Source: Stenotrophomonas maltophilia | GTDB taxonomy: Bacteria > Pseudomonadota > Gammaproteobacteria > Xanthomonadales > Xanthomonadaceae | Assembly: GCA_900113425.1 (NCBI GenBank) | Contig: FOZF01000002.1 | Span: forward strand, 761,027-825,026 | Direction of reading: 5' to 3' | Length of the DNA: 64,000 bases | Part shown: positions 35,539 to 39,170 of the stretch, one piece after another | Position numbering within the stretch: the stretch's first letter is position 1 | Layout: each line of letters starts with the position of its first letter | Translations under genes and position numbers: made by a program | The notes under the pieces: model-generated | What the model was told of the DNA's origin: nothing | What the model saw: the letters and a program-made list of their open reading frames with translations, nothing else | Databases searched by the model: none

Positions 35539-37431
35539 TCAGGCCGACAGCTCCAGCAGCAGCTTGTTCAGGCGCGCAACGTAGGCGCCCGGGTCCTTCA
35601 GGCTGTCGCCGGCCGCGAGCGCGGCCTGGTCGAACAGCACGCGGCCGAGGTCGTCGAAACGATCACCATCGGCCTCGCCATCGAGCTTGGCGATCAACGG
35701 GTGCCCCGGGTTGATCTCCAGCACCGGCTTGCTGTCAGGCACCTTCTGGCCGCTGGCTTCCAGGATCTGGCGCATCTGCAGGCCCAGATCCTGTTCGCCG
35801 ATGGCCAGCACCGCTGGCGAATCGGTCAGCCGGTGCGACACGCGGACTTCGGCCACATCGTCGCCAAGCACGGCCTTCAGCCGTTCGATCAGGGCCTGCT
35901 TGTCCTTGGCCGCCGCTTCCTGTTCCTGCTTGTCCGACTCGGTCTCCAGCGCGCCGAGGTCGAGGTCGCCACGGGCGATGTCGACAAAGCCCTTGCCGTC
36001 GAAGTCGGTCAGGTAACCCATCAACCATTCGTCGATGCGGTCGGTCAGCAGCAGCACTTCCACGCCCTTCTTGCGGAACACTTCCAGGTGCGGGCTGTTG
36101 CGGACCTGGCTGTAGCTCTCGCCGGTCAGGTAGTAGATCTTGTCCTGGCCTTCGGCCAGGCGACCGATGTAGTCGGCCAGCGAGACGGTCTGGGCATCGC
36201 CCTCGCCACGGGTGGAGGCGAAGCGCAGCAGGCCGGCCACCTTCTCGCGGTTGTTGTAGTCCTCGGCCGGTCCTTCCTTCAGCACCTGGCCGAATTCCTT
36301 CCAGAACGTGGCGTACTGCTCGGGCTTGTCGGCTGCCAGCTTCTCCAGCATGTCCAGCGAGCGCTTGGTCAGCGCGGCCTTCATCGAATCGATGACCGGG
36401 CCGGACTGCAGGATCTCGCGCGAGACGTTCAGCGACAGGTCGTTGGAATCGACCACGCCCTTGATGAAGCGCAGGTACAGCGGCAGGAACTGCTCGGCCT
36501 GGTCCATCACGAACACGCGCTGGACATACAGCTTCAGGCCCTTGGGCGCATCGCGGTGATACAGATCGAACGGTGCACGGCCCGGCACGTACAGCAGCGA
36601 GGTGTACTCCAGCTTGCCTTCGACCTTGTTGTGGCTCCACGCCAACGGATCGCTGTGGTCGTGCGCCACGTGCTTGTAGAACTCGCTGTACTCGGCGTCG
36701 CTGATCTCGGTGCGCGGACGGGTCCACAGCGCGCTGGCACGGTTGACGGTTTCCCATTCGACCGCCGCGCCCTCTTCACCCCCTTCCTTCGGCATCTGGA
36801 TGGGCAGGCCGATGTGGTCGGAGTACTTCTTGAGGATGCTGCGCAGGCGCCAGCCATCGGCGAAGTCGTGTTCGCCGTCCCTCAGGTGCAGCACGATGCG
36901 GGTGCCGCGCTCGGGCTTGTCGAGGGTCGCGACGTCGAAGTCGCCTTCGCCGCGCGAGGTCCAGCGCACGCCTTCGCTGCTGGCCAGGCCGGCCCGCCGC
37001 GAGGTGACTTCGACTTCGTCGGCGACGATGAACGCGCTGTAGAAGCCGACACCGAACTGGCCGATCAGCTGCGAGTCCTTCTTCTGGTCGCCGGACAGCT
37101 GGCGCAGGAAGTCGCCGGTGCCGGACTTGGCAATGGTGCCGAGGTGGGCGATGGCCTCGGCGCGGCTCATGCCGATGCCGTTGTCCTCGATGGTGATGGT
37201 GTGGGCGGCCGGGTCGAAACTGACGCGCACGCGCAGGTCGCTGTCGTCTTCCAGCAGGGACGGCTGGGTCAGCGCCTCGAAGCGCAGCTTGTCGGCCGCG
37301 TCGGCGGCATTGGACACCAGCTCGCGCAGGAAGATCTCCTTGTTGGAGTACAGCGAGTGGATCATCAACTGCAGCAGCTGCTTGACTTCGGTCTGGAAGC
37401 CAAGGGTTTCGGTCTGGGTCGTCTCGGTCAT
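35539..37431 (-). CDS. htpG: Chaperone HtpG (Hsp90)
   Basis: 630 residues. The GHKL ATPase N-domain shows [22 protein letters not shown] (catalytic Glu), [20 protein letters not shown] and [11 protein letters not shown]. The middle domain has the catalytic arginine in LNVSREILQ, and the C-terminal dimer domain ends [11 protein letters not shown]-dependent chaperone induced by heat. The ATG at 37431 gives [16 protein letters not shown]; the longer frame to 37707 runs through a repeat. A sigma-32-like promoter lies upstream. Confidence 0.97.
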
Positions 37432-37484
37432 CGATAGGGCTCCGTGTGCAATGCCGCGCCAGCGCGTGCGGCCTCGCCAAGGGG

Positions 37485-37509
37485 TAGGGGTGATTGTCCC
37501 GAAATCAAG
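37485..37509 (-). promoter_or_regulatory. Sigma-32-like (heat shock) promoter of htpG
   Basis: On the minus strand CTTGAT (37504-37509) and CCCCTA (37485-37490) are spaced by 13 bases, close to the sigma-32 pattern CTTGAA-N13ish-CCCCAT. It lies about 55 bases before the htpG ATG. Confidence 0.55.
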
Positions 37510-37701
37510 GGGGTTGGTCGGGCAGGGCGGCGCCCTGCACCTGCAGAGGCCAGAGCAAAAGCCAGGGCCAAAGCGGCTCTGGGTTGTCTGCTTGCTTGGC
37601 GGGGCGGTGTGGGGTGGCATGACACGCCGTAAACCCGTCCATGGGGGCTCGATGGCGCCATCCATAGCGCCAACGGTCCTGCCACCCCACACCGCCCCGC
37701 C
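37510..37701 (-). repeat. Long-hairpin composite repeat, copy A
   Basis: A perfect 22-bp inverted repeat (37598-37619 and 37680-37701) flanks a 60-base loop. On the minus strand the loop contains ATGGATG, AGCCCCC and the end ACGGCGT. It is followed by a tail (to 37510) with TTGCTCTGGC and a small GGGCGCCGCCC hairpin. Copy B has the same loop core and tail but different arm sequences. Not a SMAG element; no coding function is evident. Confidence 0.75.
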
Positions 37702-37776
37702 TCTCACAGGTCACCGGTGACGGTGACAACGGCTGGACTTCTGATCTGATCAAATCCTTCGATATCTGACAGATGT

Positions 37777-37797
37777 TCATCCACGCATGGCGTGGAT
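37777..37797. repeat. REP-like hairpin (ATCCACGC/GCGTGGAT)
   Basis: ATCCACGC, ATG, GCGTGGAT form a perfect 8-bp stem between the two composite repeats. It looks like a SMAG-type REP lacking a proper GTAG head. Confidence 0.55.
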
Positions 37798-37822
37798 CCG
37801 CAGATCGCAGCGAACTGTCGAA

Positions 37823-38001
37823 GGCGGGGTGGGTCAGGTTGTGGGGGTGTCCACGGCATGGATGCCGCGGCCAAGCCCCCAGGGATGGGTTCACGGCGTC
37901 CCCCACAACCTGACCCACCCCGCCAACCCACAGGAAACCAGCCTTTGCCGGTGCTCCAGCCGTTGCTCTGGCTTCTGCCGGTGCCGGGCGCCGCCCGGCC
38001 G
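37823..38001 (+). repeat. Long-hairpin composite repeat, copy B
   Basis: A perfect 25-bp inverted repeat (37823-37847 and 37900-37924) around a 52-base loop with ATGGATG, AGCCCCC and ACGGCGT. A tail with TTGCTCTGGC and GGGCGCCGCCC follows, in opposite orientation to copy A. The arms differ from copy A at several positions yet remain perfectly paired. Confidence 0.75.
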
Positions 38002-38004
38002 AAC

Positions 38005-38010
38005 TACAAT
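38005..38010 (+). promoter_or_regulatory. -10 box upstream of the rsmD leader frame
   Basis: TACAAT lies 7 bases before the ATG of a 13-codon frame, at the end of composite repeat copy B. No clear -35 is present. Confidence 0.35.
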
Positions 38011-38017
38011 CCCGCTC

Positions 38018-38055
38018 ATGCTGAAATTCTCGAACACCCCCCGCTGGTGGCGCCG

Positions 38056-38059
<4 letters not shown>
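38018..38059 (+). CDS. Possible 13-residue leader peptide overlapping rsmD start
   Basis: An ATG-to-TGA frame encoding MLKFSNTPRWWRR. Its stop overlaps the rsmD ATG (ATGA), and its start lies 7 bases after a TACAAT box. This arrangement would let its translation feed ribosomes to rsmD. It is too short to judge by composition; it may be chance. Confidence 0.3.

Positions 38060-39170
<1,111 letters not shown>

Follow-up and report, generated by a model that had tools for sequence, protein, structure and literature searches.

The intergenic region between htpG and rsmD in the window (the whole 64,000-nt stretch of Stenotrophomonas maltophilia DNA that was analysed) holds a head-to-head pair of stem-loop units, which we regard, with a probability of roughly 0.6, as a member of a non-autonomous mobile repeat family with a predicted double CsrA/RsmA recognition module as its head. 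Dispersal of the copies, turnover of their sites, similarity of whole pairs, strand-specific conservation of the fold and a double ANGGAN motif were all observed, and binding of RsmA by sense transcripts is predicted from the motif. The initial annotation of this region had reported two oppositely oriented copies of a hairpin repeat; that observation is confirmed, and it applies more widely than was stated there.

The intergenic span runs from the start of htpG (minus strand, ATG at 37431-37429) to that of rsmD (plus strand, ATG at 38056-38058), and two units of ~190 bp each occupy 37521-38000 in head-to-head order, the sense strand being the minus strand in unit A (about 37521-37712) and the plus strand in unit B (about 37815-38000). 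In unit A, an outward tail adjoining the htpG promoter (37521-37597, minus strand) carries a run of GTTGCC/TTTGCT-like hexamers and a terminal GCAGGGCGCCGCCCTGC hairpin, and is flanked by the stem-loop (37598-37701, minus strand) with its head (37616-37683, minus strand). In unit B, the stem-loop (37823-37924, plus strand) encloses the head (37840-37907, plus strand) and leads into a tail (37925-38000, plus strand) that ends in GCCGGGCGCCGCCCGGC and adjoins the rsmD start region. A 121-bp spacer (37702-37822) with a TCCACGCATGGCGTGGA palindrome separates the units, whose borders are CTGTGAGA and CTGTCGAA. Both tails point outward, as first described, and are mutually inverted (37521-37558 versus 37963-38000; 38 nt, 89%), and the arms of the GC hairpin that closes them change in step between units (GCAGGG/CCCTGC versus GCCGGG/CCCGGC). 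Perfect arms of 22 and 25 bp had been reported. This holds for unit B, where 37823-37847 pairs with 37900-37924 (25 nt, 100% complementary), whereas the 22 consecutive pairs of unit A belong to a 26-nt stem with further pairs past one mismatch (37598-37623 with 37676-37701; 96% complementary). The loop measures 52 nt in both units rather than 52-60 bases. Folding z-scores were -6.7 for unit A and -5.2 for unit B, and a search of the window with R1, a covariance model built from the 52-nt loop together with 8 bp of stem, returned exactly these two heads (80.0 bits for A, 88.0 bits for B).

A consensus scan of 37300-38200 for sigma-70-type promoters and intrinsic terminators, the two signal types it covered, detected neither around the pair. 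At the gathering threshold, the sole Rfam match in the window was a tRNA; under a permissive Rfam scan, a C4 antisense match (40.8 bits against a cut-off of 45) and numerous microRNA-precursor matches appeared, and were rejected as caused by the long stem. Upstream of htpG, CTTGATTT ... CCCCTA (37485-37509, minus strand) resembles a sigma-32 heat-shock promoter, and unit A ends ~12 bp upstream of it. On the opposite side, a 13-codon open frame starts at 38017 (38017-38059), its TGA overlapping the rsmD ATG as ATGA at 38056-38059; its ATGCTGAAATTC-like start recurs in several close relatives, and it is possibly a leader peptide translationally coupled to rsmD.

Similar elements are dispersed through the host genome. 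A BLAST search with unit B found about 45 places, and in the 4.14-Mb sequence R1 detected 61 heads at E<1e-10 and a further, weak one. Heads were arranged as 24 close pairs and 14 singles, with all 24 pairs in minus-plus order, i.e. divergent. The head-to-head pair recurs between unrelated gene pairs throughout the genome, and the element occupies about 37 other host sites, beside unrelated genes and in all gene arrangements (orientations were counted with a crude GC-position gene finder that miscalls some neighbours and missed htpG, so that the counts show mixed arrangements only). Whole pairs from unrelated sites could be aligned with one another along some 500-590 bp, and the mobile unit is therefore the pair. 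Other copies and covarying stems are thus present, and an origin of both units by one recent inverted duplication was ruled out.

At the htpG-rsmD site itself, most close relatives carried the pair or one recognisable unit, with differing stem alleles at the same place, and a fused element was found in one locus (L086). Several more distant Stenotrophomonas species showed 112-330 bp and no element. A cis-regulator specific to htpG and rsmD was rejected owing to the other copies, so that this part of the initial annotation, a paired divergent device, was not supported. In its general form, as a local regulatory device or bidirectional insulator that controls or separates the two divergent promoters, the idea would fit the location of the pair between the two start regions and its presence, with changing alleles, in most close relatives examined, but it is highly improbable given the recurrence at unrelated genes, the sites without the pair and the absence of a terminator-like site in the scanned interval.

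Host copies differ in several accessory traits. Spacers of pairs often contain further palindromes (e.g. L034 2900-3049, L040 2952-3104), including a long GGGGTCAGATCCGTTTTCC...GGAAAACGGATCTGACCCC hairpin, GTAGGTGTCGACC...GGTCGACAC repeats and TCCACGC..GCGTGGA, as if nested REPs collected there. A second subtype has GGCCGGGCGGG arms (L033 2791-2896, L047 3290-3393, L056 3084-3187 and others) and a short tail, CCAGCCACGAGGGGCTGCGCCGTTGGCTGG, whose complement lies upstream in a CCGTGGCTGG stretch, giving an extra basal stem. Tails of the first subtype contain hexamer-like repeats (TTGACG, TTGATG, GCTCTG, GTTGCC) in variable number (e.g. L036 3465-3560, L037 3253-3340) that could be usable as strain markers.

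The 52-nt loop on its long stem corresponds to a three-way junction with two hairpins, H1 (9 pairs including a mismatch) and H2 (6 pairs and a 5-nt bulge), both with ANGGAN loops (AUGGAU and AUGGAC in unit A, AUGGAU and AGGGAU in unit B); these covarying hairpins had been missed in the initial annotation. A set of 52 stem-loops was extracted from the host and aligned. In the head, 94.1% of cells were paired compared to 70.6% in shuffles, with 219 double-changed cells (65.9 expected) and a covariation score of 0.565 (0.160 in shuffles) that fell to 0.03-0.11 when the pairing was slid by 1-3 columns. In the 52 copies, the 25-bp outer stem was paired in 97.8% of cells and had 249 cells with double changes where 65.6 were expected (0/500 shuffles), confirming the earlier proposal that the stem is conserved in spite of arm differences. 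Every helix of the host copies showed covariation, and so did 20 of 23 pairs when heads from the whole class were compared. For the isolated window heads, another fold was slightly better by energy alone, and the covariation fold may thus depend on the long stem or on a protein.

The fold also showed a strand preference. When host outer stems were read in the sense orientation (with GGA in the loops), wobble pairs exceeded A-C mismatches by 36:5, and the same excess was found class-wide (15:4) and in two distant genomes, G238 (10:4) and G403 (31:7), p-values for these counts being indicative only, as the copies share ancestry. There has therefore been selection on folding of the sense strand, either as RNA or as single-stranded DNA.

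Heads were detected in 30 of 121 genomes of the order and in 48 of the 274 gammaproteobacterial genomes sampled, representing 42 genera. The exact H2 DNA pattern occurred, among the matches listed, in Stenotrophomonas, Rheinheimera, Marinobacter, Shewanella, Methylotuvimicrobium and Methylomonas, as well as in Halopseudomonas, Idiomarina and Yersinia similis. Four distant genomes contained 43, 107, 140 and at least 150 copies. An outer stem of roughly 25-30 bp, with arm sequences unrelated to those of the host, was seen again in many other genera. Nine close pairs from other genera of the order were also minus-plus, as were pairs in Halopseudomonas and Marinobacter, whereas close neighbours in G403 were mostly on the same strand and G238 copies were mostly single; the head-to-head pair is therefore a lineage feature. 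DNA similarity searches against plasmids and phages gave no match.

One relative is YPAL/RU-2, the Yersinia palindromic sequence reportedly described by De Gregorio in 2006 and Delihas in 2007. The RU-2/YPAL sequence printed in PMC2759123 has the head letter for letter, and in Y. similis R1 matched at 64.6 and 61.6 bits, with a 167-bp block common to two loci that corresponds to YPAL/RU-2. YPAL is intergenic and mobile, with empty and filled sites and internal inverted repeats (PMC2229807); mobility and empty and filled sites are shared by the Stenotrophomonas element. YPAL, however, stands as a single unit of 167-168 bp and its flanks are different, while in Stenotrophomonas two units sit head to head over ~500-590 bp, their tails are rich in hexamers and their arms change from copy to copy. 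Target-site duplications of YPAL/RU-2 are variable (3-26 bp), and the Stenotrophomonas empty sites are too diverged for exact ends to be fixed. A literature search, with many subscription papers outside its reach, returned no paper tying YPAL to CsrA and no description of the Stenotrophomonas repeat family.

The Rfam family Ysr224 (RF02770) corresponds to the antisense strand of the Yersinia YPAL head (129.9 and 126.5 bits), and is the only annotated RNA here; its model differs in treating that opposite strand as one sRNA. Other genera were matched weakly, also on the antisense strand. As an observation apart, this sRNA family (L210 7888-7994, L246 1814-1920) is in truth a family of repeats, and the choice of strand in its model merits a check. 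Ysr224 makes it conceivable that the antisense strand is the functional RNA, an sRNA produced from neighbouring genes whose long stem would be cut by RNase III, and in G238 38 of 46 copies would be read as antisense from neighbouring genes, so that sense read-through would be rare there. We consider this improbable, since the counts of wobbles against mismatches favour folding of the sense strand and GGA is missing from the antisense loops.

A second relative is TwoAYGGAY RNA (Rfam RF01731), said to have been described by Weinberg in 2010. It is predicted to bind CsrA, and tandem GA pairs in one of its stems have been noted (PMC4333381). The present heads likewise consist of two hairpins with A-N-GGA-N loops on a common outer stem, and in H1 the corresponding position is occupied by G-A pairs in roughly one third of the aligned heads. 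In the host, the TwoAYGGAY model matched these elements only, with a best score of 41.3 bits (below the curated cut-off of 43), and within the window it gave no match at E<=5. Rfam labels this RNA cis-regulatory, and no account was found that treats it as a mobile repeat of high copy number.

The loops of the heads are those expected for CsrA/RsmA sites. Both hairpins present a C-ANGGAN-G hexaloop; across 45 aligned heads, A.GGA and the closing G that follows were invariant in both loops, and both N positions of the H2 loop varied freely. Taken over all copies, GGA was retained nearly throughout. The CsrA/RsmA consensus is (A/U)CANGGANG(U/A), with RUACARGGAUGU as the SELEX optimum in E. coli (PMC6692469), and by sequence the heads do place CANGGANG of this consensus in hairpin loops. 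The exact UACARGGAUGU was present in 9 of 60 class-wide heads and in none of the 45 of the Stenotrophomonas-based alignment. R1 was trained on ANGGAN heads and its matches are biased towards the motif; BLAST and a stem scan supplied most of the training copies, but of the eight taken from relatives, seven had been found by motif search. The host encodes a canonical single-copy RsmA. Co-occurrence with CsrA was uninformative (44/48 carriers versus 191/226 non-carriers, p 0.26).

GGA-bearing hairpins that are expected to bind CsrA/RsmA are also found in CsrB, RsmX, RsmY, RsmZ and RsmU, the latter being an RsmA binder derived from a 3'-UTR in Xanthomonas (PMC7694677). Each of those is a single RNA, dedicated or processed, that bears several GGA sites, whereas the Stenotrophomonas repeat is dispersed and offers two such sites in every copy. 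The promoter and terminator that a Csr/Rsm sponge sRNA gene would have of its own were not recognised in the sigma-70 and terminator consensus scan of 37300-38200. With SMAG/GTAG REPs and REPINs, the element shares a high-copy, intergenic, palindromic nature and the frequent arrangement as inverted pairs. Those repeats, however, are 20-40 bp long, GTAG-tagged and RAYT-linked, and the Stenotrophomonas element is none of these: no GTAG tag was found at the stem-loop ends, and no head lay within 1.5 kb of the 11 Y1 transposase genes of five genomes. Membership in SMAG/REP was accordingly rejected, in agreement with what had been noted from the sequence.

Evidence of movement and loss came from comparisons of sites. 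Of 20 element sites sampled in two other genomes (G021 and G001), 12 had flanks common to no element-bearing host site. One orthologous convergent site, compared across different Stenotrophomonas, had only 47 bp between flank anchors in four relatives (empty) and a full pair in others. At this same site the hairpins were deleted in the host (252 bp) and in L319, L325 and L326, while L320 had a fused element. Hairpin deletions are expected of long palindromes. The host copy at a convergent site (L332, G000:C4:283567-283819) keeps both tails and has lost both stem-loops, and is a natural remnant of hairpin deletion.

In G238, the sense strand was opposite to the leading strand, as defined by GC skew, in 45 of 46 copies (p about 1e-12), and three of the 45 polarised copies lay beside lagging-strand genes, following replication and not genes. 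This is a 2.4-Mb genome with a GC skew of about 0.1-0.2 (loci L340-L359). The polarity points to replication-coupled insertion, and favours a fork-coupled, strand-specific mode in at least one lineage; G403, by contrast, showed no replication bias (31:27).

An alternative is purely selfish DNA, in which the head would serve as a single-stranded DNA hairpin for a transposase (Y1/RAYT-like or of another kind) that works on one strand at the fork, its likeness to CsrA sites being coincidental. The polarity in G238, which did not depend on gene direction where the two disagreed in a few cases, speaks for this explanation, as do site turnover, palindrome-type deletions, perfect arms with few wobble intermediates and the tolerance of DNA hairpins for G-T pairs. 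We nonetheless judge it rather unlikely, as both loops obey the CsrA rule (A-N-GGA-N closed by C-G) and vary at the N positions only, and as neither a Y1 gene near a head, among the 11 examined, nor a GTAG tag was found.

The mobile repeat with a predicted CsrA/RsmA module would work as follows. Copies would multiply as DNA, tied to the replication fork, probably via single-stranded hairpins and with an enzyme supplied in trans. Upon sense transcription across a copy, the long stem would present both ANGGAN hairpins and a CsrA/RsmA dimer could bridge them; every copy that is transcribed would then act as a small decoy or as a UTR under RsmA control. Arms would be free to vary if a perfect stem were the sole requirement, and recombination between copies, together with palindrome instability, would reshuffle them. 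Several results weigh against this reading: the negative promoter and terminator scan around the pair, the antisense position of most G238 copies relative to neighbouring genes, the antisense strand of Ysr224, the non-significant co-occurrence with CsrA, the lack of a linked transposase among the Y1 genes examined, the unbiased orientation in G403 and the slight energy preference of the isolated window heads for another fold. Both alternatives raised at the outset, a non-autonomous mobile element and a structured RNA, are supported and probably both true. More tentatively, and somewhat short of even odds, YPAL, TwoAYGGAY-like RNAs and the Stenotrophomonas pairs may form a mobile superfamily throughout Gammaproteobacteria that spreads with replication and carries the predicted double module, in which case repeat number and transcription would tune the level of free regulator and rewire its targets as copies come and go.

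These results bring three elements together in one class-wide family: the mobile repeat YPAL, TwoAYGGAY as an orphan RNA with predicted CsrA binding, and the abundant repeat of Stenotrophomonas. The near-perfect polarity in G238 offers a handle on the movement of repeats that have no known enzyme. As judged from its motifs, this mobile repeat may scatter regulator-binding sites through many genomes, with the prediction that mobile DNA delivers from tens to more than 100 CsrA/RsmA sites per genome, an unusual and testable link between a mobile repeat and a global RNA-binding regulator.
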